Below, piece by piece: positions 1,828-54,640 of a stretch of DNA of 64,000 nucleotides. Made by a program: the position numbers and the translations under genes. The stretch spans positions 1 to 64,000 of the forward strand of contig JAGGXX010000050.1 of the NCBI GenBank assembly GCA_021162845.1. Direction: 5' to 3'. Origin of the DNA: Thermoprotei archaeon. GTDB taxonomy: Archaea; Thermoproteota; Thermoprotei; QMSL01; B3-G16. Numbering within the stretch: the stretch's first letter is position 1; the number at the start of each line of letters is the position of its first letter. Under the pieces are notes generated by a model. The model had not been told where the DNA came from. It was given only the letters and a program-made list of their open reading frames with translations, and searched no databases.

Positions 1828-2835
1828 TCATAGGTTTAGGTACCTAACGGCTAGCAGATAAGCTGATGTTGTATGGATGTCTAAGCCAAGTTTCTTAGCT
1901 AATGGGATGGCATCTATAGATGCATATGCTGGGTTGACAAAGTGTAGCCTTCCACCATGCTTTGGAGCTAATATCTTTAAATGCTCAATATATTCCCTTA
2001 GAGCGAATTTAGCAATCTTCCTATTAGCACTTTTAGAGAGAGTTTTTGTTCTCGGCTTACTAAGCTTCTCAGCTACATAATCAGTTACTCCGTGATGATG
2101 AGCGTAGCTGACTAACCTCGCTAAAGCCTTCATCCTAATGTCCTTCGCTTTTTCTTTTGGAAATCCATGAGAGGTAACTTCTGGAAAATGCTCAGTCTTA
2201 ACATCCAGTAAGTCGCCATCTCTACTAACGATTACCATGCATATCCTATCCGAGTTGAAGTCGAAGCTAGCTACATGACCTCTAGAATTATGGTGTCTAG
2301 ATGTTTTGCTTAGATGTTTAACGTAAAGCCCTAGGGGGACATTAACATGTAATTCTATTCTACCATTCTTAAGGTATATTCCTGCTCCATAGGGAAACTG
2401 AGCGTTTACCAGCTCTTTTACGACCTCTAGGTATCTGCTCCCAAACCTTACCTTAGCTACTATCCATCTATGTCGTCCCGTTGATGAAGGGATTTTTATT
2501 TTAACAGTATCTGCCGATACAAGTCTAATATTCCTGTTTCCCTTCTCGTTTCCCTTACCTACTGAGAATAGCTGTGGCTTTTTGAGCTTGAGGTATGCCT
2601 GACCTTTGTAGAGTCTCGCTCTCATAAGTGCGGAATGCGAGTAATGTGCATTATTAAGTATCCTTGATGTCAGCAATCTAACAATTTGAGCGTCAGAATA
2701 GCCGTTCCTCATTAATGAGTGTGCATACTCTATAGCATCCTTAAAGTTCCTCATAACGTATAGAAGGAGTCCTCTATCGGTTGGAGAGTTCACTATGAGT
2801 CTGCCTTTGACTGTTGGTTTCACTTCCTTTTCCAT
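1828..2835 (-). CDS. tnpB: TnpB-related RuvC-fold nuclease (IS200/IS605-type accessory protein)
   Basis: 335 residues with the RuvC-like triad in the expected order: RuvC-I aspartate in VASFDFNSD (D192), RuvC-II glutamate in DYVAEKLSKPRT (E256) and RuvC-III aspartate in GLDIHTTSAYLLAVRYL (D319). Canonical TnpB proteins carry a CxxC...CxxC zinc ribbon between RuvC-II and RuvC-III. This protein has none and is shorter, like the archaeal TnpB-related subgroup with an 'HTxSAY' RuvC-III. The N-terminal 180 residues are basic and alpha/beta, as in the RNA/DNA-binding wedge region. No tnpA is present. The start overlaps the end of an AbrB-like gene by 16 bases, so the two are translationally coupled. 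It may be a mobile-element nuclease or a domesticated one; all three acidic residues remain, so activity is plausible. Confidence 0.8.
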   Translation of the reverse strand: MEKEVKPTVKGRLIVNSPTDRGLLLYVMRNFKDAIEYAHSLMRNGYSDAQIVRLLTSRILNNAHYSHSALMRARLYKGQAYLKLKKPQLFSVGKGNEKGNRNIRLVSADTVKIKIPSSTGRHRWIVAKVRFGSRYLEVVKELVNAQFPYGAGIYLKNGRIELHVNVPLGLYVKHLSKTSRHHNSRGHVASFDFNSDRICMVIVSRDGDLLDVKTEHFPEVTSHGFPKEKAKDIRMKALARLVSYAHHHGVTDYVAEKLSKPRTKTLSKSANRKIAKFALREYIEHLKILAPKHGGRLHFVNPAYASIDAIPLAKKLGLDIHTTSAYLLAVRYLNL

Positions 2836-3478: not shown

Positions 3479-4666
3479 ATGAGTGAAAATAGAATTAAAT
3501 GGTTTAGGGAAGCGCGTTTTGGGATGTTCATCCACTGGGGTCTCTATGCGATTCTTGCAAGGGCGGAGTGGGTCATGTACTTAGAGCGCATACCTAGGGA
3601 TGAGTACGCTAAGCTTGCTGAGAAGTTTAAGCCCGATAAGTTTGATGCAGACGAATGGGTCGAGATGGCCAAAAGGGCCGGTATGAAGTACATGGTTCTA
3701 ACGACAAGGCACCATGATGGCTTTAGCCTTTTTGACAGCAAACACTCGGACTTCACCTCAGCGAAGACTGCTGCTAAACGTGACCTCGTGGCTGAATACG
3801 TAGATGCCTGTCGAAGGGCTGGCATGAGAATAGGCTTTTACTACTCGCTATTAGACTGGCGTTGGGATGCATATTGGAAAGGACCCAAGGGAGATCCGGA
3901 AGGGTGGGCTAGATTCCTAGAATATGTACATGGACAGGTCGAGGAGTTATGTACGAACTACGGCAAGATAGATATCCTGTGGTACGATGGGGCATGGCCT
4001 TACTCCGCGGAGGACTGGAGGTCTGAGGAGCTCAACGCAAAGGTCCGAAAGCTTCAACCCGAAATCTTGATAAATAACCGCTCAGGTGTGCCAGGAGACT
4101 TCGAAACCCCTGAACAACATATTCCATGGTGGAGGCCACCTGCCAGGCCATGGGAAACTTGTATCACCATGAACGACAGCTGGGGTTACTTCGAGGCGGA
4201 CAGGAACTGGAAGACGCCTAAGCAGTTGATAGAGGTCCTAGTGACATGCGTCAGTCTAGGAGGGAACCTCCTACTTAACGTAGGACCTAGGGCGGATGGA
4301 ACCTTCCCGCCCGAGGCAGTGGAGATACTATCCGAGATAGGGAAGTGGATGAGGGCCCATGGTGAATCCATCTACGGCGCTGGCCCCTGTCCCTTTACCA
4401 CGACGGTGGGTAGGGTGACAGCTAAGGCCAACAAGGCTTATGTCCATGCGTTCCGCTGGCCTGGTAAGGAGATATGCGTAGCTGGTGTTGGCAATACGGT
4501 ATGCTCAGCCTATATACTGTCTACAGGAGAGGAAGTACGTGTGGTTCAGGAAGGCGATAGGGTCTTCTTAAAGGGCTTACCTAGGCTGGCGCCAGACCCA
4601 TATGATACAGTGATAGTGATGGAGCTTGATGATGAGCCTAAGGGCGTGCCCTACACCCCTCGCTGA
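3479..4666 (+). CDS. GH29 alpha-L-fucosidase
   Basis: 395 residues, an intracellular-looking enzyme (no signal peptide) that releases terminal alpha-L-fucose by a retaining mechanism. Family GH29 signatures are clear: WFREARFGMFIHWGLYA at the N-terminus, the substrate-binding TTRHHDGF (H78-H79), YYSLLDW, and the nucleophile aspartate D170 in KIDILWYDGAWP. The WGYF and NLLLNVGPRADGTFP blocks close the barrel. A short beta-rich C-terminal domain follows (about residues 300-390). The acid/base is poorly conserved in GH29 and cannot be assigned by eye. The gene precedes an HpcH-type aldolase and a multidomain ADP-ribosylglycohydrolase-fold protein, all on the plus strand with gaps of 67-230 bases, consistent with a fucoside or deoxy-sugar utilisation locus. 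Confidence 0.92.
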   Translation: MSENRIKWFREARFGMFIHWGLYAILARAEWVMYLERIPRDEYAKLAEKFKPDKFDADEWVEMAKRAGMKYMVLTTRHHDGFSLFDSKHSDFTSAKTAAKRDLVAEYVDACRRAGMRIGFYYSLLDWRWDAYWKGPKGDPEGWARFLEYVHGQVEELCTNYGKIDILWYDGAWPYSAEDWRSEELNAKVRKLQPEILINNRSGVPGDFETPEQHIPWWRPPARPWETCITMNDSWGYFEADRNWKTPKQLIEVLVTCVSLGGNLLLNVGPRADGTFPPEAVEILSEIGKWMRAHGESIYGAGPCPFTTTVGRVTAKANKAYVHAFRWPGKEICVAGVGNTVCSAYILSTGEEVRVVQEGDRVFLKGLPRLAPDPYDTVIVMELDDEPKGVPYTPR

Positions 4667-4733: not shown

Positions 4734-5495
4734 ATGAGAAACCCTGTCAAAGCCAAGCTTAAGGCTGGTCAACCATCTATCGGAACGTGGATGACTATAG
4801 GCCATCCGGATGTCGCAGAGTTCCTCGCCACATTAGGCTTTGACTGGTTCGTCTTCGATATGGAGCATAGTCCCCTCAGCTTTGAAACAGTCCAGGTCCT
4901 GATGCAGGCATCGAGCTTTTCCAAGACCGTACCCATGGTGCGAGTAGCCTGGAATGACATGGTCCTGATAAAGCGGGCGTTGGACATAGGCGCCTATGGC
5001 CTCGTCATACCTTGGGTGAATACGAGGGAAGACGCTAAGAACGCCGTGAGGTACTCCCGCTATCCGCCTAGGGGCGTCAGAGGTTGCGGTCCGAGGAGAG
5101 TTGCGGTGAGGGATCCCGAATACTTCGAGACCGTCGAAGATGAGCTCCTGTTGGTCGTTCAGATAGAAACAGAAGAAGCTCTTAAGAACATAGATGACAT
5201 ATTAACCGTCGAAGGCATAGACGCATGTTACATAGGACCTAATGACCTATCCATGAACTTAGGCGTGTTCAGGCAGTGGGATCACCCGAAGTTCAAGAAC
5301 GCCTTGGAGACCGTATTAGACGCGTGTAAGCGATACGGAGTAATACCCGGTATGCACTGTAGTCCTGAGAACATAAATCAGGCCCTCGAGATGGGCTTTA
5401 GATTCTGCGCCATAGGCTCCGATTACAGATTCCTACTCAGAGGGGCATCTGAGGCCATAAAAAGCGTTAAGGGCTGGACGCCAGGACAGCTCTAA
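4734..5495 (+). CDS. HpcH/HpaI-family class II aldolase (2-keto-3-deoxy-sugar-acid aldolase-like)
   Basis: 253 residues, a full-length (beta/alpha)8 aldolase of the HpcH/HpaI/RhmA type. These cleave 2-keto-3-deoxy acids into pyruvate and an aldehyde using a divalent metal. Visible active-site elements are the catalytic histidine in FDMEHSPLSF (H45), the pyruvate-binding arginine in MVRVAWND (R70), and the metal ligands E145 in VVQIETEEAL and D171 in YIGPNDLSMNLG. It starts 67 bases after the fucosidase. L-fucose catabolism by the non-phosphorylated route ends in 2-keto-3-deoxy-L-fuconate or its oxidised product, so an aldolase of this family is a sensible partner. That assignment is inference; related enzymes act on 2-keto-3-deoxy-L-rhamnonate and homoprotocatechuate products. 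Confidence 0.88.
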   Translation: MRNPVKAKLKAGQPSIGTWMTIGHPDVAEFLATLGFDWFVFDMEHSPLSFETVQVLMQASSFSKTVPMVRVAWNDMVLIKRALDIGAYGLVIPWVNTREDAKNAVRYSRYPPRGVRGCGPRRVAVRDPEYFETVEDELLLVVQIETEEALKNIDDILTVEGIDACYIGPNDLSMNLGVFRQWDHPKFKNALETVLDACKRYGVIPGMHCSPENINQALEMGFRFCAIGSDYRFLLRGASEAIKSVKGWTPGQL

Positions 5496-5725: not shown

Positions 5726-7630
5726 GTGACCGATTTGAATACTCGTGAACTAGATTATAGCGTATATTTTGATAAGGTGTATGGTGGCTGGGTGGGCAAG
5801 TGTATAGGAGGGGCCATCGGGGCTCAGGTGGAGGGGCAAAAGGAGCTTCATGAATTTACAGAGGAGACGGCGTTCCCCGAGAAGTGGCCTCCAAATGATG
5901 ACTTAGATCTACAGGTGCTATGGCTTCATGCCATCGAGGATAGGGGGATCTTCATCACGAGCCGTGATCTGGCCGAGGAGTGGGTTGAGCATTCTTGGTA
6001 CTTCTTTAACGAATACGGGCGGTTCCTTAAGAACTTCGCTCGCGGCATAGAGCCCCCCATCTCCGGTTGGTTTGACAACGAGTACTTCCGCGAATCAATG
6101 GGTTGTCCCATAAGATCCGAGATATGGGGGTTCATATGCCCTGGGAACCCCAGTCTGGCCGCTTCCTATGCTGAAAAGGACGGCACGTTGGATCACTGGA
6201 AGGGATCCGTGTGGGCTGAGCAGTTCTTCTCAGCGATTGAGGCGGCCCTCTTCTTCGAGAGTGATATAAACAAGCTAATAGACGTAGGCCTAAACTATGT
6301 CCCAGAAGGCTCTAAGCTAAGGGGGGTCATAGAGCTCGTCAAGGATTGCAGGAGGAGGGGACTTAGCTGGAGGGAAGCTAGGATGGAGGTCCTGAGGAAA
6401 TTCGGCAACCCGGACTTCACCTCGGTTTACCAGAACATAGGCTTCACCCTCATAGCCCTCCTCTGGGGCGAGTATGACTTCGGGCGAACGATGCTCATAG
6501 CGCTTAACTGCGGCTACGATACTGACTGTACCTGCGCCACGGCTGGTGCCATATTGGGAGGTATACTGGGCGAGAAGAGGATTCCCGCGAAATGGAAGGC
6601 ACCGCTTAGGGATGAGTTCGAGATGGGCTTTAAGGTCCCTAGGGAAAGCTATAAGATAGCTGATCTGGCGCACGAGACTTGTGCTGTGGGGATAGCGATT
6701 TCAAGAGTGCTGAATAAGGGGGTTAGAATAGCGGGCGTCCCAGCCCATGTGATGGAAATGTCCAAGCATATACCAGTTGGGAGGCCCACGCCCGAGGTCG
6801 AGATATTAGTGGACTATTTAGGCCTTCCTGCTATAAGTAAAGGCGAGGAAAAGGTACTTGAGATAAAGATTAAGAATAACCGCGATTCGGGGATTTACGG
6901 TACCTTGAAGCTGGAAGTGCCCGAGGGATGGGGTGCATCAGATCCAGTCAGAGTCATAATACCGCCTCATGAAGTGCGCGCTTATAGGTTTAATGTTAAG
7001 GCACCGGTTCATGGCGTATTATGGGACAAGAACATACTGCGTGCTGTCCTGAGTACGGATCAGGGCGAGGTTTGGCGGAGGGACTTCGGGCTCTGTGGTG
7101 CTAGGCTATGGCGGCTACTAGGTCCGTTCTGGGAGAGCCCTAGCTGGATTGCTGATGTCGCTGACATAGAGAAGAGCTACGTTAATGAGTCCTTGATAAC
7201 CTCCGGTAGGGAACTAGAGCTATTCAAGGACGCGCTTGAATTTAGCTCGCCCGAGAGCAAACTACCGATGGATGACGTGCTTGGTTTTAAGGGAGAATAC
7301 TGCGTATACCTTCTTCATCGTCTGGTGTCACCGGATGAGAGGGACGTCTCACTTGTAATAGGGGCATCTGGGGACGTAAGGGTGTGGCTTAACGGACGGC
7401 TGTTAAGCGAGAGGGAATGGCGGTTTGGCGCTGCTGCCAGTAAGTACATATGGAATCCCGTGATGCATTGGTTTGATGTGCGCCTCAGGAAGGGGGAGAA
7501 CAAAGTGGTGATAAAGTACGTGAAGAAGACTAAAGAAGCGGAGCTAAGCTTTGACGTACATAAGGAGAATAAAGAGAGAATTCCGGGTTACTCCATATGG
7601 CAGGTGGACTTAGGTAGCGCACTAGGCTGA
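5726..7630 (+). CDS. ADP-ribosylglycohydrolase-fold protein fused to NEW3-like and jelly-roll-like domains
   Basis: 634 residues. The N-terminal about 330 residues follow the ADP-ribosylglycohydrolase (ARH/crystallin J1) family: YGGWVGKCIGGAIGAQVEG at the start, NDDLDLQVLWL with the first metal acidic group (D58-D59), and ALNCGYDTDCTCATAGAILGG (D265, D267) with the second. Residues about 355-450 look like an NPCBM-associated/NEW3-type beta domain (EIKIKNNRDSGIYGTLKLEV). Residues about 500-625 look like a jelly-roll carbohydrate-binding module (DVRVWLNGRLLSEREW, RKGENKVVIKYV). Such modules belong to glycoside hydrolases rather than to ADP-ribose enzymes, so the true substrate may be a glycoside. 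The start is GTG at 5726; a TTG at 5735 is an alternative. No signal peptide is seen. Confidence 0.75.
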   Translation: MTDLNTRELDYSVYFDKVYGGWVGKCIGGAIGAQVEGQKELHEFTEETAFPEKWPPNDDLDLQVLWLHAIEDRGIFITSRDLAEEWVEHSWYFFNEYGRFLKNFARGIEPPISGWFDNEYFRESMGCPIRSEIWGFICPGNPSLAASYAEKDGTLDHWKGSVWAEQFFSAIEAALFFESDINKLIDVGLNYVPEGSKLRGVIELVKDCRRRGLSWREARMEVLRKFGNPDFTSVYQNIGFTLIALLWGEYDFGRTMLIALNCGYDTDCTCATAGAILGGILGEKRIPAKWKAPLRDEFEMGFKVPRESYKIADLAHETCAVGIAISRVLNKGVRIAGVPAHVMEMSKHIPVGRPTPEVEILVDYLGLPAISKGEEKVLEIKIKNNRDSGIYGTLKLEVPEGWGASDPVRVIIPPHEVRAYRFNVKAPVHGVLWDKNILRAVLSTDQGEVWRRDFGLCGARLWRLLGPFWESPSWIADVADIEKSYVNESLITSGRELELFKDALEFSSPESKLPMDDVLGFKGEYCVYLLHRLVSPDERDVSLVIGASGDVRVWLNGRLLSEREWRFGAAASKYIWNPVMHWFDVRLRKGENKVVIKYVKKTKEAELSFDVHKENKERIPGYSIWQVDLGSALG

Positions 7631-7760: not shown

Positions 7761-8756
7761 ATGAGGTTCGAAATGCGTAAATTACTTGTTGAAATGCCCG
7801 ATGAAACCATAGTCAAGGTACCCTATTTTACATGTGGGAGCAGGGAACCCGTTCTCTACATACAGGCGGCACAACACGGCGTAGAGCTCACGGGGATATA
7901 CACTATTAAGCTTCTGATGGAGGAGCTAAGGCGTGAGGAGAAGCTAGATGGAAGGTTAATACTAGTCCCAGTGGCGAATCCTCTTGCCGTTAGATGGAGG
8001 AGGCACTTCTATAAGATGGAGCTCGGTGAGCCCTATTCAAGTGAGCATCCTCATCAAATGAACAGGCTCTGGCCGGGAAAGCCGGATGGAAATGAGACCG
8101 AGCGCCTAGCCTATACCATCTACGAGAATCTAGTTAGCGGGGCTGAATACGTCATAGACCTTCACTGTTGGGAGATGTGGCGATGTAGCGCTGCCCTAGG
8201 CCTTGAGTGGGATAAGGCCTCCACTGAAATGTGCAGGTACTCCCTCCTTGAATTCGTATCCTTATCCCCTAAAAACCGCTTTACGGGCAGGTTCAAGGGC
8301 GTTATAACCTATGTAGTGACCGAAGCTGGAGGACATGCCATGACCATTGAGCATTCAGGTCAGAGATGGGTCTTCAAGGAGGAGGCATCGAGAATATGTA
8401 ATGGCATCTTGAACGTCATGCGTTACTTAGGCATGATCAAGGGTGAGCCTATAATGCCGCAGGAGCAGTTCATCGTGGGTAGATCTCCTCACAAGGACCT
8501 CTATGCGCCTAAGGGCGAATGGCTCATAATCCTGAATAAAGGGCCCGGAGATCGCGTCGATAAAGGGGAGGAGGTGGTTAAGTTGGTCGACCTGAACACC
8601 TTATCGGAGGAGGTAATGGTGAGCCCGATAAGGGGGGTTATATATGAGGTAGGCGCTACTCGGCCTAATGTCGATACCAGGCCTTCCGAAGAGGTCCTAG
8701 TAATCCTTAAGGGAGAAAGATACCGAGTGGCTACGATATACGAATCTAAATCTTAG
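7761..8756 (+). CDS. Succinylglutamate desuccinylase/aspartoacylase-family zinc hydrolase
   Basis: 331 residues of the M14-like AstE/ASPA amidohydrolase family. Zinc ligands are visible as H39 and E42 in IQAAQHGVELTG and H135 in YVIDLHCWEMW. The substrate-binding NPLAVRWRR and MNRLWPG segments follow normally. The C-terminal about 90 residues form the beta-rich lipoyl-like lid (GDRVDKGEEVVKLVDL). Family members hydrolyse N-acyl amino acids or act as deacylases, and the substrate here is unknown. The ATG follows a good GAGGTGA ribosome binding site (7751-7757). The last four bases overlap the end of the convergent radical SAM gene. There is no arginine catabolic context. Confidence 0.85.
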   Translation: MRFEMRKLLVEMPDETIVKVPYFTCGSREPVLYIQAAQHGVELTGIYTIKLLMEELRREEKLDGRLILVPVANPLAVRWRRHFYKMELGEPYSSEHPHQMNRLWPGKPDGNETERLAYTIYENLVSGAEYVIDLHCWEMWRCSAALGLEWDKASTEMCRYSLLEFVSLSPKNRFTGRFKGVITYVVTEAGGHAMTIEHSGQRWVFKEEASRICNGILNVMRYLGMIKGEPIMPQEQFIVGRSPHKDLYAPKGEWLIILNKGPGDRVDKGEEVVKLVDLNTLSEEVMVSPIRGVIYEVGATRPNVDTRPSEEVLVILKGERYRVATIYESKS

Positions 8757-43620: not shown

Positions 43621-44670
43621 ATGGACAAAGCCAGGATAGGCATAATAGGCTTCGGGTCCATAGGAAAGGTCCATATAGAGAACTTCATGAAGATAAAGGA
43701 AGCCGAGGTCGTGGCTGTATGTGACATAGATGAAAGGGAGCTAGAATACGCTAAGAGTAAGTACGGGATCGATCGACTATACAAGGACTACCATGATCTC
43801 CTATCTAGGGAAGACATAGATGCCGTCCTAGTATGTCTGCCGAATAGGCTACACTCCGTGGTTACCATAGAGGCGCTGAAGTCTGGTAAGCACGTCCTAT
43901 GTGAGAAGCCCCCGGCTATAACGGCTAGGGAAGTTAAGGAGATGTTCGATACGAGCAAGAGGTGTGACAAAAAGCTACTGATAGGCTTAACGATGAGGTT
44001 TAGGAACCAGACTCAAGTCCTGAAGAGCTATCTGAGCTCCGGTGCCCTGGGGGACATCTATTACGCCAAGTGTGGATATTTGAGGAGGAGCGGAATCCCT
44101 GGGATGGGGAGCTGGTTCACCACTAAATCAGAAGCCGGAGCTGGCCCTCTTTATGACATAGGGGTGCACGTACTAGACCTAACGCTATGGCTAATGGGTG
44201 ACTTCAGGGCGGATACGGTAATGGCATCCACCTATGCTAAGTTCGGCCCTCGTGGCAAGGGGATGGGAGGATGGGGTAAGCCCGTCCCTGGAGGTCCTTT
44301 TGACGTAGAAGACCTGGGCGTAGCCCTCATAAAGATGCGTAGTGGCGCCACAGTATTCCTTGAGGCTAGCTGGGCGGCTCATGTAGGGGAATCGGGCATT
44401 TACTCCCTGATCCTAGGCGATAAAGGCGGGGTCGACTACACCTCCATGACCATACATACTGAGGAGAACGGGGTACTAGTCGATAAAAGACTTCATTACA
44501 CAAAGAATAACCCCTACTTAACCGAGGCACAGCACTTCGTAGAATGCATACTTAAGGATAAGGAACCCATCACGAAGCCTGGGGAAATGATCTGGCTTCA
44601 GGCGATCCTAGAGGCTACATTAAAGTCGGCCGAGAAGGGACATGAGGTTAAAGTCGAGCAATTGATCTGA
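43621..44670 (+). CDS. Gfo/Idh/MocA-family NAD(P)-dependent oxidoreductase
   Basis: 349 residues. Rossmann start IGIIGFGSIGKVHIENF, catalytic CEKPPAITAREV (EKP lysine at about residue 98), then the substrate domain with YDIGVHVLDLTLWLMG. It is a second, distinct member of the family seen at 26128. It heads an operon with a HAD phosphatase, Maf and a CinA-like protein (gap 36 bases, then overlaps). The substrate is probably a sugar or cyclitol; the exact reaction is unknown. Confidence 0.87.
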   Translation: MDKARIGIIGFGSIGKVHIENFMKIKEAEVVAVCDIDERELEYAKSKYGIDRLYKDYHDLLSREDIDAVLVCLPNRLHSVVTIEALKSGKHVLCEKPPAITAREVKEMFDTSKRCDKKLLIGLTMRFRNQTQVLKSYLSSGALGDIYYAKCGYLRRSGIPGMGSWFTTKSEAGAGPLYDIGVHVLDLTLWLMGDFRADTVMASTYAKFGPRGKGMGGWGKPVPGGPFDVEDLGVALIKMRSGATVFLEASWAAHVGESGIYSLILGDKGGVDYTSMTIHTEENGVLVDKRLHYTKNNPYLTEAQHFVECILKDKEPITKPGEMIWLQAILEATLKSAEKGHEVKVEQLI

Positions 44671-44706
44671 ACCTCTTCCGATTTATGGTAAGTCCGCGGT
44701 GGTTTT

Positions 44707-45444
44707 TTGACTTCCCCGATAAGCGTTGGGAATAGGATACGCTCGCTTAAAGGCGTGGTGTTCGACCTAGATGGCACACTTACCTTAGTTAAGTTTAAAT
44801 ATAATTCACCCTTGCATTCTACATATGTAAACCGGTTAAAGGAAGGTCTTGTAAGACTATATGGCATACCACGGGATATAATACGGGAATCGCGCTTCCT
44901 AAGCGAGATACGGGAAAAAGCGGTATGTTATCTCGAGGCATTAGGTGCTCCGGAGGCTCATCTGAGGAGGATGTTATCGTTTGTGGATTCCCTGATAGAT
45001 GAGTACAGCTCGAGGGAGCTCTCCTCGGTGAGGCTGGATCCGGAGGCAATCCACGTCCTCAATGCGCTAAGATCCATGGCCTTAAAGATAGGCCTATGTA
45101 CTTTTAGTAGCAGACAGGTGGCCCTCAGGTTCTTAAGGAGATTCAACATAATAGATTTCTTCGACGCTATAGTCACGCGCACGGATGTACTTCACGCGAA
45201 GCCTAATCCACTTCAGCTCTTGACGACGATAGAGTCATTAGGCCTCAAGCCATCTAACGTCATGCTGGTATCCGATTCCCTCATGGATGTGGCCATTGGG
45301 AAATCGCTAGGGTTAGCGTGTTCCGTCCTGATAACACGTGAATCCACGATACCTTATCCTGTAATGTGCAAACCGGACATCGTGATAGATAGGTTAGGGA
45401 TCCTAGTAGACCTGATTAGAGGGGCTAGGGATGGGACGCCTTAG
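44707..45444 (+). CDS. HAD-superfamily phosphatase (phosphoglycolate phosphatase-like)
   Basis: 245 residues. Motif I VVFDLDGTLTLVKF, motif II IGLCTFSSRQVALRFL, lysine motif AKPNPLQLL, and motif IV VMLVSDSLMDVAIGKSLG. A helical C1 cap lies between motifs I and II. It dephosphorylates a small metabolite, possibly a product of the preceding oxidoreductase. The start is TTG at 44707. The 3' end overlaps maf by 14 bases. Confidence 0.85.
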   Translation: MTSPISVGNRIRSLKGVVFDLDGTLTLVKFKYNSPLHSTYVNRLKEGLVRLYGIPRDIIRESRFLSEIREKAVCYLEALGAPEAHLRRMLSFVDSLIDEYSSRELSSVRLDPEAIHVLNALRSMALKIGLCTFSSRQVALRFLRRFNIIDFFDAIVTRTDVLHAKPNPLQLLTTIESLGLKPSNVMLVSDSLMDVAIGKSLGLACSVLITRESTIPYPVMCKPDIVIDRLGILVDLIRGARDGTP

Positions 45445-46060
45445 GGTAATCTTGGCTTCCTCCTCTAAAAGACGCCTTGAGCTCCTCGAGTCCATAGGCC
45501 TTAAGCCGATAGTCATACCTCCCAAGTATAGGGAAGTGAGGAGCGAAACTCCCTGGGAGTTATGCATGCTCAATGCCTTTGGGAAGGCCATGGAGGTAGC
45601 TGGTATGGCTCCTTATGACGCCTTAGTCATAGGTGCTGATACCCTGCTATACCATAGGGAACGCGTCATAGGTAAGCCCAGGGACATGAGAGAAGCTGAG
45701 CATATCTTGAGCATGTTAAGTGGAAATGAGCATTATGTATACACAGGCTTGTGCGTCGTACGAACGGATACATGGGAGATAGCGCAAGGCTATGAGGTGA
45801 CGAAGGTATTCTTTAAGGAGCTTTCACCCATGGAGGTTAAGAAGTACTTAGCCATAGAGGATCCCCTTGATAAAGCCGGTGGATACGCCGCCCAGGGTTT
45901 AGCTTCCCTCTTAATCACCAGGATAGAGGGGGACTTCTTTAACGTTGTCGGATTACCTTTACACTTGCTCTATCTGCTCCTTAAGGTCATCGGGATCGAT
46001 GTTTTTGATATGATTAAGTCGAAGAACAAGCGAAGCTTGGATGGCAGTCAAGATATATAG
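45431..46060 (+). CDS. maf: Maf-like nucleoside triphosphate pyrophosphatase
   Basis: 209 residues. LASSSKRRLELLESIGL is the Maf signature start. VIGADTLLYHRERVIGKPRD carries the metal-binding acidic residues, and DKAGGYAAQGLASLLITRIEGDFFNVVGLPL is the conserved C-terminal block. Maf proteins hydrolyse dTTP/UTP or modified NTPs to the monophosphate as house-cleaning enzymes. Translationally coupled to the upstream HAD gene. Confidence 0.9.
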   Translation: MGRLRVILASSSKRRLELLESIGLKPIVIPPKYREVRSETPWELCMLNAFGKAMEVAGMAPYDALVIGADTLLYHRERVIGKPRDMREAEHILSMLSGNEHYVYTGLCVVRTDTWEIAQGYEVTKVFFKELSPMEVKKYLAIEDPLDKAGGYAAQGLASLLITRIEGDFFNVVGLPLHLLYLLLKVIGIDVFDMIKSKNKRSLDGSQDI

Positions 46061-46095
46061 TCTTGTACGCGTCTACTTACCGCTGGGAGAGGGTA

Positions 46096-46917
46096 ATGGG
46101 GTTAGCCACCGGATTTAGGGCATGGCTTATAACCGTGGGTAACGAGATCTTGATAGGGAGGGTCGTTAATACAAACCTTGCCTGGTTGGGCAGAAAGTTG
46201 ACCTTATTAGGTTATGACGTGCATAGAGGGCTTATAGTGCCAGACGAAATAGACGATATAGCCTGGGCGTTTAAGACAGCGTTGAGCTCGGATGCTAAGG
46301 TCATAATATCGACAGGAGGCCTAGGCCCCACCTTTGATGATAAGACGCTAGAGGGGCTGGCATGTGCGTTAGGCGTGAATCTTGAGCTGAACGAAGAGGC
46401 CTTAGAGATGATCAGGGAGAAGTATGAGGGTAGAGGGCTTAAGCTTACGGAGCATAGAGTGAAAATGGCTAAGCTACCTCGGGGAGCTAGGCCCATACCA
46501 AATCCAGCTGGAACAGCACCTGGTGTGCATATAGAGCTACGAGGGAAACACGTATTCGTCCTTCCAGGAGTGCCTAAGGAGATGAAAGCCATCTTCGAAA
46601 CTCATTTAGAGCCGCTCCTGAAGCGAATAGGTCCCGCCGTCTACTTCGCTGAGAGATTCCTAATTTCAAAGGGCATCCCGGAATCAAGCGCCGCTCCTCT
46701 GATAGAGGAGGCCATGAAATTAGGGAGGGCCGTCTACATAAAGAGCCATCCGAAGTTCTCAGAGCTTGAAGGGCCTGTCCTCGAATTTCACGTAACAGCT
46801 TCAGCTCGAAGTAGGGAAGAGGCCGAAAGGGATGTGGAAAGGGTGACCTCCAAGCTAAGGGAATTACTAAGCAGGCATGGAGGTAGAGTCTATGAGGTCG
46901 GAAGTGATGAATTCTAG
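46096..46917 (+). CDS. CinA-like molybdopterin-binding-fold protein
   Basis: 273 residues from the ATG at 46096, chosen for GAGAGGG directly upstream; a TTG at 46063 would extend it by 11 residues. The MoCF/CinA N-terminal domain is clear: AWLITVGNEILIGRVVNTNLAWLGRKL, STGGLGPTFDDKTLE, NPAGTAPGV and VLPGVPKEMKAIFE. The C-terminal deamidase (PncC) domain of bacterial CinA is absent. Archaeal short CinA proteins may act as ADP-ribose or FAD pyrophosphatases. It is the last gene of the oxidoreductase-HAD-Maf operon. Confidence 0.85.
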   Translation: MGLATGFRAWLITVGNEILIGRVVNTNLAWLGRKLTLLGYDVHRGLIVPDEIDDIAWAFKTALSSDAKVIISTGGLGPTFDDKTLEGLACALGVNLELNEEALEMIREKYEGRGLKLTEHRVKMAKLPRGARPIPNPAGTAPGVHIELRGKHVFVLPGVPKEMKAIFETHLEPLLKRIGPAVYFAERFLISKGIPESSAAPLIEEAMKLGRAVYIKSHPKFSELEGPVLEFHVTASARSREEAERDVERVTSKLRELLSRHGGRVYEVGSDEF

Positions 46918-47007
46918 GACCCTACTTCCTTTAGGAGAGCATTAGGCTTGGATACGTCACTAATGGGTTAAGGGAAATAGTAAAATCCATCTTAGTGGCT
47001 TTCTCTT

Positions 47008-49683
47008 ATGATGAGGGCCATCGCTCTAACGCTATTAACGTTGCTCCTGCCCTCCGCTATAGCCGGGGCTTTTTACGTACCTCCTGGTACAGGGGGGTCT
47101 ACACATAGACATTTAGGCGTTCATTTGACCTATTCTTATCTCCTAGGGGTCGTACACCTGGGGATATGGGAAGGTTATCTTGACGTTGTAGCGAAGGCGA
47201 GATTGAGCATCCTATACGATGGAGGCGAGGTAACAGTATTTGAGAATGTTAAGACATCCGGTCTGGCTTCAGGAGAAGAGGCCTGGGATCACGTGTTCCC
47301 GAACGTCGGTGGAAGTACCTTCAGGTTAAGAGGCCTTAGCCAATGCTTGATGAGCTATGGTGACTTGCCCATAGCAAATGCAACCGCGAAGGGCGTCTTT
47401 AATGAATCCGCATATCTTCGCGCGGAGGCACATATGTACGTGCTCGAGGAGGAGGCATACCTGCTATACGGGTACGCCGAGGCTAGCGCTGACGACACGA
47501 CGATCTGGGCATTACCCCCTTCATGGGAACTAAGGGAACTGGCAACGGATTTGAGGAGAAGTTTAAGCTCGGAGGTCAAGGGAATCGCCGTATCCAACAT
47601 GAGTATAGAGCTGATATACGCCTATAGCAATATATCGCTAGTAGACCTCATTTATGAATACACAAGGATCCTCCAAGTCGAGATAGTAGATGGGGAAGGC
47701 AATCTACTGCCAGCTCGAATCACGCTCTATAATGCGTCGGATTTAGATGGGGATCTTCACCCCGAGTCAAATGTGATCCTCAATAACGAAGAACCTTATG
47801 CCGAGTACGTATGGCCTATTGGCGCTAGAAGGCTTCCTAGAGCCCCACAGGGCATAGGCGAATACGTCGTTGAAGCAGAGAGCGAGATAACCATATCGGA
47901 TAAGACGTACGTGTTCGATCATTGGGAGTGCCAAGGTGGAGTTCAAGTAGCAAACTCCAGTTCACCTAGGACGAACGCGACGGTAAGTGATGACGGTATA
48001 TTGAGAGCTGTATACAGATACGTAGTCCCACCCCCGAGACCTGGGGAGCTCCTAGTCATAGTATACGACTTAGTGACCAGCAAGCTATGGACCGCTGAGA
48101 TAATGATAAATGGTTCAAGTTACGTAATCCACGGAAACACTACGGTATCGTGTAGCATAGGTAAGGGCTTCCCCGTGGAATTCGTAAGTGCGCCCAACAG
48201 GACGTTCGCTGCTTGGTCCTCCAATGATCTAGTTCTCCTTACTAATCCCCTAGCCTCTACGACATCGGCAGTCCTCTTATCGAGCGCCCGTAACGGGGTA
48301 TTGATACTGACATTACGGAACATGATGTATGAGCTCCTCGTGGACTCACGTCCTCCTTCAAATGTGGGTATAGAGGTGGAGGAAGACAGCGGAAGCGAGG
48401 TGTACTACACTCCCTTTAGGATTAGAAGGAAGAGCCCATTTGAGGTGACTTTGAAGATACCAACTAAGGTTAAACGAGATAAGCGTACCCTAAAGCTCAA
48501 ATATTGTCTCCTAAGCGACGATAGGGGACGCATTTTAGCTAACTGGAGCGCTGATGAACTGCCCAGGAAGAAAAATAAGGTGATAGTCGAGCTCACCATC
48601 GATGGTAGCTATAACCTGACGGCTTTCTATGGCCTGAAAGGTAAGAAGGGCCTCCTCATCGAGATAGAGGATGTGAGCCTAGTCCCTTGCTACTGTGATA
48701 ACTCCTCCTCCGTGATCCTTGATAACACATACTTGGCTCCCATGGAGTACATGTGCTTTAAAGTCCTGGTCGCCTCACAGCTCAAGAGGACTACCGAACC
48801 CGGTATACGTCCGGCCAACCTGACTGTTGAGGTGCTTACGCCCACCTTTGCCCGGATAGTCTCAGGCTATACTGGAACGCTGACTAAGGAGGTGGGACGG
48901 GAGGGCAATGGCATAGTACTAGGCACGATAGGCCTTTGGGCCATAAATGGTGATGCCCTCGGAGGAGATGTCTACGTGGGTAAGGTCACATATAGTTATT
49001 CCTGGGATGAAGGAGGGGGCAGTGGTTCTACGTACGTGACCATATCCTCGATGAAGCCGAACCTCCTATGGCTTCCCATATCGCCCGACTCCTATGCATT
49101 AGCGGTATATTATACATGGGCGGACGACACACCTGTCATCGGGAGGCCTTATATTTCAGGCTGGCTCACGACCCCCTATGGGGACATAACGCTTAAGGGG
49201 GACCTAATAGCTGGCCTTCGTGCCTTCACCAACGTAACCCTTCCCCCAGATTTCCGATACCCCTGGAATACCTCTGTAGCCTTCAGTGTAATAAGCCATA
49301 GGGACCTAGCAGGTGTAGCTTTAAGCGATTTTATACCTTTCCATACAGGGTTCCCCTGGATCAGTAGCTTGAGCTTCGAGAAGCACATGTTAGGCGTTAT
49401 AATAGAGGAGAGAAATGATAGCCTCTTTAATTTGAGCCTTGTGGATCTCTCAGAGCTCAAGAGGGTGAAAGGTATCATAGCTCTAATAATCAAGGATCTC
49501 GATGAGGGTACGGAGACCTATAGGTTACTTCCGACTAACGACGAGGGTTGGCTCGTTATAGAGCGGAGTGAACTTCAGCTACCTCGGAGATACGAGGTAT
49601 GGGCTATAGGCCTTGCAACGGGATATAATGTAATCTACGAAAGCGGCGAGTACGCTAAGATACTCATCGAGCGGAGCGGTTAG
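47008..49683 (+). CDS. Large exported beta-rich protein, unknown
   Basis: 891 residues with a signal peptide (AIALTLLTLLLPSAIAGAFY). The rest is extracellular, beta-rich and rich in NxS/T sequons. Two sections resemble secreted beta-repeats: about 290-340 with TYVFDHWECQGGVQ...ILRAVYRY ('Bacterial repeat'-like) and about 350-420 with FVSAPNRTFAAWSS. Near 555 comes DVSLVPCYCDNSSS. There is no C-terminal transmembrane helix, so it is released or held by other surface proteins. It may be a surface or glycan-binding protein. ATG 47011 is an equally good start. Confidence 0.65.
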   Translation: MMRAIALTLLTLLLPSAIAGAFYVPPGTGGSTHRHLGVHLTYSYLLGVVHLGIWEGYLDVVAKARLSILYDGGEVTVFENVKTSGLASGEEAWDHVFPNVGGSTFRLRGLSQCLMSYGDLPIANATAKGVFNESAYLRAEAHMYVLEEEAYLLYGYAEASADDTTIWALPPSWELRELATDLRRSLSSEVKGIAVSNMSIELIYAYSNISLVDLIYEYTRILQVEIVDGEGNLLPARITLYNASDLDGDLHPESNVILNNEEPYAEYVWPIGARRLPRAPQGIGEYVVEAESEITISDKTYVFDHWECQGGVQVANSSSPRTNATVSDDGILRAVYRYVVPPPRPGELLVIVYDLVTSKLWTAEIMINGSSYVIHGNTTVSCSIGKGFPVEFVSAPNRTFAAWSSNDLVLLTNPLASTTSAVLLSSARNGVLILTLRNMMYELLVDSRPPSNVGIEVEEDSGSEVYYTPFRIRRKSPFEVTLKIPTKVKRDKRTLKLKYCLLSDDRGRILANWSADELPRKKNKVIVELTIDGSYNLTAFYGLKGKKGLLIEIEDVSLVPCYCDNSSSVILDNTYLAPMEYMCFKVLVASQLKRTTEPGIRPANLTVEVLTPTFARIVSGYTGTLTKEVGREGNGIVLGTIGLWAINGDALGGDVYVGKVTYSYSWDEGGGSGSTYVTISSMKPNLLWLPISPDSYALAVYYTWADDTPVIGRPYISGWLTTPYGDITLKGDLIAGLRAFTNVTLPPDFRYPWNTSVAFSVISHRDLAGVALSDFIPFHTGFPWISSLSFEKHMLGVIIEERNDSLFNLSLVDLSELKRVKGIIALIIKDLDEGTETYRLLPTNDEGWLVIERSELQLPRRYEVWAIGLATGYNVIYESGEYAKILIERSG

Positions 49684-49747
49684 CAACCGCAACGAGCCTA
49701 GGTGAATGATTTAATTAACTAATCCCCGATCGCTTGGAGTGGTTCAA

Positions 49748-49843
49748 GTGACGACGCGTCACATGAATTTAACATAAGACATTTATCACCATACGGAGTA
49801 GAACGTTGATGAATGGAAAGTCTTATTACGACTAATGGTCGTA
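49748..49843. promoter_or_regulatory. Two dyads upstream of the V4R gene
   Basis: GTGACG-ACG-CGTCAC (49748-49762) and TACGAC-TAATG-GTCGTA (49827-49843) are perfect inverted repeats in the 187-base gap before the V4R gene. The second is 37 bases from the start. They may be operators; the half-sites differ, so two regulators or coincidence are possible. Confidence 0.35.
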
Positions 49844-49879
49844 GACATAAGCTGACCTCCTCTCAAGGGGGTGCCTGCC

Positions 49880-50692
49880 ATGGAACCGCGCATGTTTTGC
49901 CCATTACACATAGGTAATATGCTTAGGACTAATGGACATAAGATATATGGGTTCTCGATCCTGGTATCGGAGGAGGAAGCCGAGACGTTATATGAGGTCG
50001 TAAGGGTGTTCAAGAAGTATGGCGTGAAGCTCATCCAGATCATGGGTTCTACGCCTCTCTTAGTCAAAAAGGGCTATTTGACCTACGTCGTCGGGGACTT
50101 CACGGACTCTGAAATAGAGCCACAGACCTTAGCTGAAGAGATAAGGAGACTTAGTTCCATCGAGGATGTATGTATTATAGCTCCTATAGACGATCTCCTA
50201 GTCAATACGATTCATTTTCCCCTATTCGTGGGGGACAGTAGGGCTATGATAGTTAATGAGCCGTTTATGAGGGCCATTATAAGGAGGCCTAGAGAGCGCT
50301 TTGGCTCAGGGGTTGAGGCATATCAGTACTATGAAGGAAAGTTCATAGGCGAATCGGTTTACGATGCCCTAAGCCTCTTCATCAAGGGACGGGAGAAACT
50401 CATCGAAGGATTAAGAGCCTACTTGATATCCATAGGCTTAGCGGTCATAGAACTAATCGAGTTAAACCCGGATAAACCGCTAATCATCATCAGGGCTTAC
50501 GATAGCTTTGAGTGTGAGCTAGGCAAGGGATCGGATAGGCCGTATAGTCATATACTTAGAGGCATCTTAGCTGGCTTCCTAGGGAGGGTGCTAAATGAGA
50601 ACTTAATAGCGCGCGAGGTCAGGTGTATAGCTAAGGGTGATGAGTACTGCGAATATGAGATAACACGTGAGGAAGAAGAGGAAGAAGACTAG
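49880..50692 (+). CDS. V4R-domain protein with N-terminal ACT-like domain
   Basis: 270 residues from the ATG at 49880 (GGGGTG six bases upstream); a GTG at 49871 is the alternative. Residues about 15-105 look like an ACT-type ligand-binding beta-alpha fold (YGFSILVSEEEAETLYEVV). Residues about 130-260 are a V4R (4-vinyl-reductase) domain with FIGESVYDALSLF and the closing EVRCIAKGDEYCEYEI. V4R domains bind small hydrophobic ligands in regulators and bacteriochlorophyll enzymes. There is no DNA-binding domain, so it would act as a sensor partner. The tail is strongly acidic. It lies 45 bases before the GH31 gene. Confidence 0.78.
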   Translation: MEPRMFCPLHIGNMLRTNGHKIYGFSILVSEEEAETLYEVVRVFKKYGVKLIQIMGSTPLLVKKGYLTYVVGDFTDSEIEPQTLAEEIRRLSSIEDVCIIAPIDDLLVNTIHFPLFVGDSRAMIVNEPFMRAIIRRPRERFGSGVEAYQYYEGKFIGESVYDALSLFIKGREKLIEGLRAYLISIGLAVIELIELNPDKPLIIIRAYDSFECELGKGSDRPYSHILRGILAGFLGRVLNENLIAREVRCIAKGDEYCEYEITREEEEEED

Positions 50693-50736
50693 GTTTCTCG
50701 TAAACGTATAAAGGCTGAGCGAGATAATTCCCTTAG

Positions 50737-53133
50737 GTGTTCATCTTGGCTTATGAGTTACTAGGGACGGTGATGGAAGTCGAGCGAGAGGGAAACGTCA
50801 TTAACATTACATGCGAGAACGCCCCATTGCGCCTTTATATCCTGGGCTCACGCTTAGTGAGAGTCAGGTTAGCGCCATTTGGGTTCTCCGTAGATCATTC
50901 ATGGGCTGTCGTGAAGGAGGATTGGCCTGAGACAAATTTCTCCATAGAGGAGGACGAGGAGACGCTTGAGATACATACTCGTGAACTCAAAGTTATGGTT
51001 CGAAAAAAGCCGTGCAGGATAGCCTTCTATGATAGGAATGGCAGGCTGATAAACAGCGATTACGAGCCCTTGGGCATGGGGTGGAATGTGAACTGCGTCA
51101 AGTGCTGGAAGCGGATGCCACGTGACGAACATTACTACGGCTTTGGCGAGAAAGCACTTCCACTTGATAGGAGACGGCGTCGGATGGAGATGTGGAACAC
51201 CGATGCTTACGGTTATAGGACGGGTACCGATCCCCTATACGTGAGTGTGCCCTTCTTCATAGCCATCAGAAAGGGGATCGCTTATGGCATCTTCTTCGAT
51301 AACACCTATAGATCCATATTTGACATGGGCTCCTCCTCTGAGGATTACTATAGCTTCGAAGCTGAGGGAGGTGAGCTTAATTACTACTTCATATACGGGC
51401 CAAGCATTAAGGACGTGATCGATAAGTATACGGAACTGACCGGTCGTCCCTTTCTCCCTCCCCTCTGGGCCTTAGGTCATCAGCAATGCAGATATAGTTA
51501 TTACCCAGCTGAAAACGTCTTAAAGCTTGCTAAGCGATATAGGGAAAGAGACATCCCTTGTGACGTCATATACCTAGACATAGATTATATGGACTCCTAC
51601 AAAATCTTCACATGGAGCAACGTAAGGTTTCCGGATCCCAGAAAACTCACTGATGAGTTAGGGAGGATGGGTTTTAAGTTAGTGACGATAATAGACCCAG
51701 GAGTGAAAGCTGAGAGCGGCTATAAGCCATTTATCGAGGGAGTTAAAGGGGGCTACTTCTGCAGGAGACCTAATGGGGAGATCTTCTTCGGTAGGCTATG
51801 GCCTGGTACATGCGCGTTTCCTGATTTCGCAAGGGAGGATGTTCGGGATTGGTGGGCCTCCCTTCATGAGATACTCTTCAGGGAGGGGGTCAGTGGTATA
51901 TGGAATGATATGAATGAACCAGCGTTGCTTGGGGAGCAGAGGACCATTGAGCGAGACGTCATACATATTGAGGATGGGAAAGAGGTAGCACATGCCAAGA
52001 TACACAACGTCTATGCCCTCTTAGAGGCGATGGGTACCTTCAAGGCATTCCGAAAGTTCAGGAAGAACATGAGGCACTTCATACTCTCCAGGTCCGGGTA
52101 TGCGGGGATACAGCGGTATGCAGCCGTATGGACGGGGGATAACACGTCTAATTGGGAGCACCTCTGGCTACAGATACCCATGTTGTTAGGCATGGGCCTC
52201 TCGGGCATGCCCTTCATCGGGGCTGATGTAGGCGGCTTCATAGGCTCTCCGACTCCTGAGCTATTGGTCAGATGGTACCAACTAGCGGCCTTCATACCCC
52301 TCTGCAGGAATCATACCTCAAGGGGTACTTTTGATCAAGAGCCTTGGGTTTATGGCGAATACTACGAGAGCATCATCAGGAGATACTTGAAGCTCCGTTA
52401 TAGGCTCCTGCCTTACCTCTATGTCCTCTTCAAGGAGGCATCGGAGAAGGGATATCCCATCATGAGGCCGCTTCTCTTTGAGTACCAGGACGATCCTAAC
52501 ACGTATACTATCGATGACGAGTTTCTAATCGGAGAGAACCTATTGATAGCGCCCGTTCTTAAAGAGGGATGTGATAAGCGACTGGTCTATTTACCTAAGG
52601 GTACTTGGGTGGATTACTGGACGCATAAGGTATACGAGGGACCTACGTACGTCAGCATAGAGGCGCCATTAGATAAGATGCCTATCTTCGTGAAAAACGG
52701 TTCGATAATACCCATGCAGCCCGAGATGAACTACGTAGGGGAAAGGGATCCGGATCCGCTGACCTTAGACATCTACTTGCTGAGCGGTGAGGCCTCGTTT
52801 ACGCTCTATGAGGATGATGGCGTAACCCTCGATTACGTTAAAGGCATATACTACGAAAGAGAGTTCCGTTGTAGGAGGACAGAGGATGTCATAGAGTTAG
52901 AGGCCAGCGAAGCAAGGGGTAAGTACGTTCCCTCACGCAAGAGTTTAGTGTTCAAGGTGAACCTAGTAAGCTCTAAGCCTAAGAGCGTCCTGTTGAATAA
53001 TAAGATACTGAAGGCAGTATCTTCCTTAGGAGATCTCAAGGAAGGTTGGCATTACGATCCTAATAGGAACATCCTTCACGTGGCTGTCCCGGAGAAGAAG
53101 AGGGGCTTCCTAGTTAGGATAAAGCTTCATTAA
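50737..53133 (+). CDS. GH31 alpha-glucosidase/alpha-xylosidase-type glycosidase
   Basis: 798 residues, no signal peptide. An N-terminal beta-sandwich is followed by the barrel with PPLWALGHQQCRYSYYPAENV and DVIYLDIDYMD. The catalytic nucleophile aspartate is in GIWNDMNEPALL, and the acid/base aspartate in AAVWTGDNTSNWEHL. RPLLFEYQDDPNTY and the C-terminal beta domains (ASFTLYEDDGVTLDYVKG) are typical. It hydrolyses terminal alpha-linked glucose or xylose from oligosaccharides. The start is GTG at 50737 with a GTATAAAG box about 30 bases upstream; TTG at 50746 with AGGTG before it is an alternative. Confidence 0.92.
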   Translation: MFILAYELLGTVMEVEREGNVINITCENAPLRLYILGSRLVRVRLAPFGFSVDHSWAVVKEDWPETNFSIEEDEETLEIHTRELKVMVRKKPCRIAFYDRNGRLINSDYEPLGMGWNVNCVKCWKRMPRDEHYYGFGEKALPLDRRRRRMEMWNTDAYGYRTGTDPLYVSVPFFIAIRKGIAYGIFFDNTYRSIFDMGSSSEDYYSFEAEGGELNYYFIYGPSIKDVIDKYTELTGRPFLPPLWALGHQQCRYSYYPAENVLKLAKRYRERDIPCDVIYLDIDYMDSYKIFTWSNVRFPDPRKLTDELGRMGFKLVTIIDPGVKAESGYKPFIEGVKGGYFCRRPNGEIFFGRLWPGTCAFPDFAREDVRDWWASLHEILFREGVSGIWNDMNEPALLGEQRTIERDVIHIEDGKEVAHAKIHNVYALLEAMGTFKAFRKFRKNMRHFILSRSGYAGIQRYAAVWTGDNTSNWEHLWLQIPMLLGMGLSGMPFIGADVGGFIGSPTPELLVRWYQLAAFIPLCRNHTSRGTFDQEPWVYGEYYESIIRRYLKLRYRLLPYLYVLFKEASEKGYPIMRPLLFEYQDDPNTYTIDDEFLIGENLLIAPVLKEGCDKRLVYLPKGTWVDYWTHKVYEGPTYVSIEAPLDKMPIFVKNGSIIPMQPEMNYVGERDPDPLTLDIYLLSGEASFTLYEDDGVTLDYVKGIYYEREFRCRRTEDVIELEASEARGKYVPSRKSLVFKVNLVSSKPKSVLLNNKILKAVSSLGDLKEGWHYDPNRNILHVAVPEKKRGFLVRIKLH

Positions 53134-53363
53134 AACCCCCTTAAGGGTCCGGAGGACATATAAGGTAAAGTATCGGCTTTACGTATAAGTAGGATATACA
53201 TTGCCTACTACAAGGCGTTTGGGTCATGATCTAACGCGAAGTGCTTCTGTTGTCATCCTCTTGTCTGTCCGGACTGAGACTTGTCATTCCCCTGAAGTAG
53301 ATCAAAGCCTCCCGCTACATTTATAAAGGTACTCTTTCATTATTGCGTAGGCGGTGTATCACG

Positions 53364-54584
53364 TTGGCCGGGAAGCCGACCTTAGATTTAAATCCTGTGG
53401 TTTATGACATCACGGGGGAGTCGGCCTTCACTTATTTAGCTAGAGCTAAGGCCCTAGCTGAACAGGGGATGGACATCGTAAGTTTTGGCATAGGGCAGCC
53501 CGATCTTCCTACACCTAAGCACATAAGGGAGGCCGCTAAAAGAGCTTTAGACGAGGGGTTCACTGGATACACTGAGGCCGCGGGGATAAGGCCCCTTAGA
53601 GAGGCCATAGCTGATTATCTTAACACGAGATATGAAACCGACGTAAAAGTAGACGAAATCGTAGTAGCGACAGGTGCTAAGACCGCTATATTCATGGGTA
53701 TGGCGGCGTTCATCAGGCCAGGAGATGAAGTCATAATCCCAGAGCCAAGCTATCCACTATACGCCCAGGTGACCAAGCTCTTCGGTGGTAGGCCTGTTTA
53801 CGTGCCGTTAAGCTGGCATGGAGGACAAGAAGGTTTCATGCTTGACCTAGAACTGATCGAGGCTAACATAACCGAGAAGACCAGAATGATAGTACTAAAT
53901 AACCCCCATAATCCGACAGGGGCCGTCTTCACGTCAGGTGAAGTAGAGGAATTGCTCTCCTTGGCTAGGAACAAGGGATTGGTCATATTAGCCGATGAGG
54001 TATACGATAATTTCGTATATGACGGTATTAGCTTCCACAGCGTCCTAAGCGCCTCTGATTGGCGCGATTATGTCGTCTATATTAATGGCTTTTCGAAGAC
54101 CTTCGCCATGACTGGATGGAGGCTAGGCTACATAGTGGTTAGAAGCGAGATAATAGATCGCATACTGGACCTCGCGACTAACATTTATAGTTGTGCCACC
54201 AGCTTCGCCCAAAAGGCTGCCATAGAGGGACTCAGGGGGCCATGGGAGCCGGTAAAGGAGATGGTCAGCCTTTTCGAGAAGAGACGGGATCTATTATATG
54301 AGCTACTTAGTGAAGTCCCCGGCTTCGATGTGTGGCGTAGTCCGGGCGCGTTCTATATGTTCCCAAATGTAGAGGAGGCCATAGAAGCCACCAAGATGAA
54401 GAACTCGAAGGAGCTAGCGGATACTTTACTTGAGCGATATGGGGTCGTGGTACTCCCTGGAACTGCTTTCCCCGATAAGGCTGGGGAGGGCTTTTTAAGG
54501 TTCAGTTTCTCCGTGGACTTCGCCGATATAAGAAAGGGAGTGGCTCGCATTAAGAAGGCGATCGAGGAGCTCTCGAGGGCATAG
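53364..54584 (+). CDS. Class I/II PLP-dependent aminotransferase (aspartate aminotransferase family)
   Basis: 406 residues from the TTG at 53364. A TATA box (TTTATAAAGG, 53320-53329) predicts transcription from about 53350, downstream of the longer-frame TTG at 53343, and GGTG precedes 53364. FGIGQPDLPTP and GFTGYTEAAGIRPLREAIADYL are the N-terminal signature. VLNNPHNPTGAVF, ADEVYDNFVYDG and the PLP lysine in NGFSKTFAMTGWRLGY follow, with the carboxylate-binding arginine in FLRFSFS. It transfers amino groups between amino acids and 2-oxo acids; the substrate preference is not determinable. Confidence 0.9.
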   Translation: MAGKPTLDLNPVVYDITGESAFTYLARAKALAEQGMDIVSFGIGQPDLPTPKHIREAAKRALDEGFTGYTEAAGIRPLREAIADYLNTRYETDVKVDEIVVATGAKTAIFMGMAAFIRPGDEVIIPEPSYPLYAQVTKLFGGRPVYVPLSWHGGQEGFMLDLELIEANITEKTRMIVLNNPHNPTGAVFTSGEVEELLSLARNKGLVILADEVYDNFVYDGISFHSVLSASDWRDYVVYINGFSKTFAMTGWRLGYIVVRSEIIDRILDLATNIYSCATSFAQKAAIEGLRGPWEPVKEMVSLFEKRRDLLYELLSEVPGFDVWRSPGAFYMFPNVEEAIEATKMKNSKELADTLLERYGVVVLPGTAFPDKAGEGFLRFSFSVDFADIRKGVARIKKAIEELSRA

Positions 54585-54640
54585 CCCAACTGATGATATA
54601 ACTTAATTATGAATTTTTTAAATCTTAAATAGGGATCTTA

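Follow-up and report, generated by a model that had tools for sequence, protein, structure and literature searches.

A non-canonical ADP-ribosylglycohydrolase-fold protein from a Thermoprotei archaeon as a candidate sugar-cleaving enzyme

Proteins resembling the product of the open reading frame at 5726–7630 (forward strand, GTG start) are routinely annotated as ADP-ribosylglycohydrolases (ARHs), a name that implies the de-ADP-ribosylation of proteins. The frame lies in a 64 kb window, the whole stretch of DNA analysed here, from a heat-loving Thermoprotei archaeon with a genome of 68 contigs and 2.18 Mb, and encodes a 634-residue ARH-fold protein with additional C-terminal domains. The question raised by this locus is whether the protein acts on ADP-ribosyl proteins or, as the first-pass annotation proposed, on a glycoside. 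Should many members of its branch prove to be glycosidases, the sugar-cleaving enzymes would come to include a metal-dependent fold that is not known to break down carbohydrates, a function would be assigned to a block of archaeal and bacterial sugar-operon genes, and a heat-stable deoxyhexoside enzyme could follow. No report of an ARH-fold glycosidase, or of an activity for the sugar-linked branch, was found in the literature searched, outside which most subscription papers fall.

The catalytic domain and its place in the ARH superfamily

The reading frame represents a real gene whose architecture and frame are under selection, since full-length orthologues with 56–69% identity occur in related genomes. 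A single-protein scan of the genome contigs returned only three close orthologues, and no relatives were found among viral contigs. The profile PF03747 (ADP_ribosyl_GH) matches residues 20–288 (5783–6589, forward strand; E = 1.6e-39) with 136.8 bits against a cut-off of 26.2, covering positions 1–286 of 287, and a genome-wide search placed the domain at the same coordinates. This match places the protein in the ARH superfamily, in agreement with the ARH-like catalytic domain claimed at first pass. Pfam glycoside hydrolase families gave no match in the 634 residues. In a model of the whole protein (pLDDT 51), too weak in the catalytic domain to be used, residues 1–330 are all-helical and mostly below a pLDDT of 50; its Foldseek matches were to generic β-sandwiches and were set aside.

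As shown for ARH1 and ARH3, the coordination motif E…[T/S]DDT…D[T/S]D[T/S] carries two metals that hold the distal ribose via its 2'' and 3'' hydroxyls, the mutation of one coordinating residue abolishes activity, and only α-linked ADP-ribose is cleaved (PMC6309922). In our alignment, E36 (5831–5833) falls on the absolutely conserved catalytic Glu of ARH1 and ARH3 (PMC6309922), N57-D58-D59 (5894–5902) stands in place of the canonical [T/S]DD, D265-T266-D267-C268 (6518–6529) stands in place of D-x-D-[T/S], and H157 (6194–6196), aligned to the pyrophosphate-contacting His of ARH1 and ARH3, is kept, all on the forward strand. E36, NDD and DTD are invariant or nearly so among relatives, all of the acidic residues are strongly conserved across 30–35% identity, and the branch retains the catalytic Glu, four Asp and the His. 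The metal motif of the window clade thus reads E36…N57-D58-D59-L60…D265-T266-D267-C268, and the description of the NDD and DTD motifs as intact holds for the carboxylates but not for their surroundings, where [T/S]DDT has become NDDL and D-x-D-[T/S] has become DTDC.

A second change concerns residues M125–F136 (6098–6133, forward strand; MGCPIRSEIWGF), a clade motif that replaces the canonical GS[YF]GNGAAMR. The ARH3-type segment GS[YF]GNGxAMR, which human ARH3 and the archaeal ARH3-like proteins possess, is replaced by MGCPIRSEIWG in the window protein (MG[CS]PIRSEIWG in the clade). In LchARH3 the adenosine is contacted by Phe129, Ser134 and Tyr135 (PMC6309922). In ARH3-like proteins, contacts of this kind are made from the GS[YF]GNGAAMR segment. 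Since E36 and H157 are retained and GS[YF]GNGAAMR has given way to MG[CS]PIRSEIWG, the alignment suggests a site that is conserved towards the sugar but not towards the adenosine.

Fifty ARH domains were aligned and a tree was built on 48 of them, in which 40 rows including the window protein are split from an eight-row canonical group with a support of 100/99. The canonical yardsticks were E. coli YegU and archaeal ARH3-like proteins, one of which was checked and matches human ARH3 (E = 3e-45); the solved ARH structures themselves are absent from the tree. The window protein does not group with these yardsticks and belongs to a well supported non-canonical ARH branch, rather than being an isolated oddity. 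It fails as a canonical ADP-ribosylhydrolase in its motifs, its loop and its position in the tree. With ARH1, ARH3 and DraG it shares the PF03747 fold family, the catalytic Glu, the DD and DxD pairs, the conserved His and, probably, a binuclear metal site, whereas NDDL/DTDC in place of [T/S]DDT/DTD[T/S], the exchanged adenosine-side segment, the separate branch and the extra NEW3 and jelly-roll domains set it apart.

Other ARH-family proteins resemble it in part. E. coli YegU is likewise encoded in an operon (yegTUV) that also specifies a transporter and a sugar kinase, but it is canonical (TDDT, NGAAMR, DTDT) and lacks accessory domains; the operon is repressed by GgaR, the functions of its genes are stated to be unknown and a link to ADP-glucose has been proposed (PMC10819704). 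The large bacterial ARH proteins of Rhizobiaceae, Deinococcus and Enterobacter (about 700 residues) belong to the non-canonical branch and lie in LacI/CUT1/ribokinase import operons, but they carry the motifs DDDx and IGxQIFID and have C-terminal regions that are unmatched by the archaeal C-terminal profile. A plasmid-encoded homologue from Persicobacter psychrovividus shares the architecture along its full length, with 28.6% identity across 98% of the query, and matches the C-terminal profile, of which it is itself a part, with E = 2e-68; it differs in being bacterial, in its DSDC motif and in its position beside SusC/SusD-like proteins and a nucleoside hydrolase. Two rhizobial plasmids carry tandem ARH-family genes in LacI/CUT1 operons (L096:4783–8103 and L098:4777–8097), of which the short one (401 residues) groups with the canonical branch and the long one (699 residues) with the sugar-linked branch.

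The accessory domains

The catalytic domain is followed by a NEW3 (NPCBM_assoc)-like Ig domain (residues about 358–455; 6797–7090, forward strand) and a jelly-roll-like β-sandwich (residues about 460–612; 7103–7561, forward strand). The C-terminus of the window protein itself has no Pfam match, PF10633 included. The NEW3-like domain claimed at first pass is nevertheless confirmed through two orthologues, L023 (32.2 bits) and L012 (26.0 bits), which exceed the cut-off of 24.4 for PF10633 (NEW3 domain of α-galactosidase), align to the window protein at 53–57% identity and carry this domain adjoining the catalytic domain, the architecture of NEW3-bearing glycosidases; PF10633 was matched at some level in eight of 18 related C-termini. 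A model of residues 346–634 that drew on three sequences predicted two successive β-sandwiches (mean pLDDT 74, pTM 0.65). The matches of this C-terminal model are to generic Ig and jelly-roll folds; besides GH115, a CBM-bearing sialidase and rhamnosidases, they take in integrins and transglutaminases, and they were therefore not taken as evidence of sugar binding.

The second module had been described as a jelly roll resembling sugar-binding modules. The predicted β-sandwich stands, but the similarity to glycosidase modules is weak, the only non-ARH glycosidase-like sequence matches being the PA14 region of BoGH31A (E = 0.044) and two GH2 glucuronidases (E = 0.17 and 0.36). The accessory domains from which a glycoside substrate was argued are thus present, yet the argument is weak on its own, as NEW3 and Ig-like domains also occur outside glycosidases. 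On a plasmid of Cnuibacter physcomitrellae (L094:5878–8508), an ARH domain is naturally fused to CBM4_9, CBM6 and CBM35, all three matches being above the cut-off, and the gene lies downstream of LacI/CUT1 sugar-import genes; this member forms a long branch in the tree and its placement is unsure.

The jelly-roll module is also shared (E about 1e-15) by proteins of 1089–1092 residues in the window genome and in one related genome, G003 (L063:4922–8191 and L064:7395–10673); the N-terminus of these proteins is hydrophobic, and neither Pfam nor the PDB gave a match for them. The 1089-residue protein of the window genome follows an open reading frame that reads by eye as GH3.

Gene neighbourhoods and co-occurrence

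In the window, a GH29 α-L-fucosidase (395 residues; 3479–4666; PF01120, E = 1e-98), a 2-keto-3-deoxy acid aldolase of the HpaI/GarL/RhmA type (4734–5495; PF03328, E = 8.7e-43) and the ARH gene follow one another on the forward strand with gaps of 67 and 230 bp, which bears out the position after GH29 and a keto-acid aldolase noted at first pass. The aldolase scores 204 bits with TIGR02311 and 194 bits with TIGR03239, both below the equivalog cut-offs. An AstE/AspA-type deacylase (7761–8756, forward strand; PF24827, E = 1.2e-21) lies downstream. Neither the ARH nor the GH29 protein starts with a signal peptide-like sequence, which was counted in favour of a cytoplasmic glycosidase, and the ARH protein is predicted to be cytoplasmic. 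The GH29–aldolase linkage was not seen around the orthologues in four genomes (G003, G022, G024 and G034).

Elsewhere in the window, a second sugar-related stretch (43621–55648) holds a Gfo/Idh oxidoreductase, a protein of 891 residues that begins with a signal-like segment and matches no Pfam family, a GH31 protein and a zinc alcohol dehydrogenase. A 335-residue open reading frame (1828–2835, reverse strand) matches no Pfam family and resembles by eye a diverged TnpB/IS605 OrfB-type protein.

Among relatives, four clade B members (L014–L017) lie near a rhamnulokinase, which scores 472 bits with TIGR02627 and 132 with the fuculokinase model, as well as near a xylose/rhamnose-isomerase-like protein and an Opp-type (oligopeptide) ABC importer; in L016, the ARH and the kinase are separated by a class II aldolase and an AFOR. 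GH38 mannosidases adjoin two relatives (L052 and L055), an XylB-type (xylulokinase-type) FGGY kinase adjoins another (L048), and a further one (L047) lies beside a FucI-like isomerase and a Gfo/Idh oxidoreductase. Among bacterial members of the branch, two (L095 and L098) lie inside LacI/CUT1/ribokinase clusters, that from Deinococcus adjoins GH2 and a trehalase-family glycosidase, and that from Flammeovirga adjoins RbsK and a GRP sugar transporter. Members from Mycolicibacterium and Agrobacterium occur with ribokinase. Against a control set that is itself rich in sugar genes, no near-neighbour enrichment was significant (URO-D, p = 0.08; GH38 and FGGY, p = 0.26). The URO-D/MtaA-like proteins recur beside archaeal ARH genes (L047, L052, L055 and L057), making up eight of 93 near neighbours against one of 72 in the controls.

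Co-occurrence was followed across 61 related, and hence not independent, genomes, with presence score thresholds set by hand from the match lists and with the window-type gene defined as clades A and B, partial copies counted; 13 genomes carry it. GH78 is present in 11 of these 13 and in two of the 48 gene-negative genomes (p = 1.3e-8), or by genus in six of eight against one of 20 (p = 5e-4). GH29 (11/13 versus 4/48) and GH2 (12/13 versus 4/48) track in the same way, whereas GH31 hardly tracks (11/13 versus 20/48, p = 0.011; by genus, p = 0.21). Five of the 13 and none of the 48 have rhamnulokinase-grade kinases, although by genus the figures are only 2/8 versus 0/20 (p = 0.07). The co-occurrence with GH78, GH29 and GH2 could owe much to a generally saccharolytic way of life.

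Probable function and alternatives

Action on a sugar rather than on ADP-ribosyl proteins is supported by the phylogenetic separation together with the loss of the adenosine/pyrophosphate loop, and by the sugar-catabolic neighbourhoods, the ARH–CBM fusion and the co-occurrence with GH78, GH29 and GH2. This part of the first-pass proposal thus gains from evidence that it did not itself hold, while the uncharacterised glycoside hydrolase type that it suggested is hypothetical. Taken together, these lines of evidence make it somewhat more probable than not that the protein works inside the cell as a divalent-metal-dependent glycosidase, within the non-canonical, sugar-linked ARH branch. More tentatively, and with less than even confidence, it may be the founding member of a mis-annotated ARH-fold glycoside hydrolase family spread over Thermoproteota and several bacterial phyla, a binuclear-metal α-L-rhamnosidase or an enzyme for another cis-diol deoxyhexoside or hexoside. 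The substrate sugar would most likely bear a cis-2,3-diol, and L-rhamnose is the best single guess for it, although far from established, because the closest operon-embedded relatives lie with rhamnulokinase. The idea that the ARH protein replaces a missing rhamnosidase was rejected, since GH78 is present in 11 of the 13 gene-carrying genomes; this presence also speaks against a rhamnosidase in that the role would be partly redundant.

In the mechanism that we infer, oligosaccharides or glycosides of plant or algal glycans would be imported into the cell, where E36, D58, D59, D265 and D267 would bind a pair of metal ions. By chelating vicinal cis-hydroxyls of the sugar at the non-reducing end, these ions would assist the hydrolysis of an α-glycosidic bond. 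In ARH1 and ARH3 the distal ribose is chelated in this way, through its 2''-OH and 3''-OH. The NEW3 and jelly-roll domains may brace the catalytic domain or help to hold the aglycone, and the released sugar would enter the deoxyhexose or pentose catabolism of the cell.

The main rival to such a glycosidase is a riboside or pentose-salvage hydrolase, which would free ribose or a derivative from α-ribosides, ADP-ribose-like or nucleotide-derived compounds for pentose catabolism. Canonical ARHs do cleave α-ribofuranosyl bonds (PMC6309922), and the bacterial relatives with ribokinase or nucleoside hydrolase, namely those of Flammeovirga, Mycolicibacterium, Agrobacterium and Persicobacter, point to ribose and thus against the favoured reading; the other ARH of the genome, located among RuBisCO, DUF6785, R15P-isomerase-like and PRPP-synthase-like genes, points to pentoses. 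That pentose-linked archaeal paralogue, however, falls into a separate clade with the motifs DDDID and IGAQIRAD, while the clade of the window protein and clades B–D lie with hexose and deoxyhexose genes, so that we regard a riboside substrate as possible but unlikely. A paper on ribose scavenging (Rus) in Bacteroides is said to hold an ARH-like gene, which serves as a lead only.

The altered metal site, with N57 and C268, would also suit a sugar-related protein without hydrolytic activity, with a binding or regulatory role or acting on a glycosyl-phosphate or glycosyl-amine intermediate; the activity of such a site is putative, and the branch has no known chromogenic activity. The strong conservation of the acidic residues at 30–35% identity suggests catalysis instead and makes this explanation improbable. 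De-ADP-ribosylation in the manner of ARH1, ARH3 and DraG, with the extra domains recruiting protein targets of a regulatory hydrolase of ADP-ribosyl proteins or nucleic acids, is the least supported and, in our estimate, a very improbable reading: the PF03747 fold, the Glu, the four Asp and the His are all kept, but the protein lies outside the canonical branch (100/99), the GS[YF]GNG adenosine/pyrophosphate segment is missing, the gene contexts are sugar-linked, and [T/S]DDT and DTD[T/S] are changed in a site where single metal-ligand mutations abolish the activity of ARH1 and ARH3 (PMC6309922).

The only other ARH gene of the window genome encodes 438–444 residues on contig C51 (L018:4975–13509), among genes for a RuBisCO large-chain protein, a DUF6785/6784 membrane protein, a PRPP-synthase-like protein and two IF-2B (R15P-isomerase-like) proteins. 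It is a possible unrecognised enzyme of archaeal pentose or nucleotide catabolism, and a relative of it at another locus (L065) also adjoins a RuBisCO gene.
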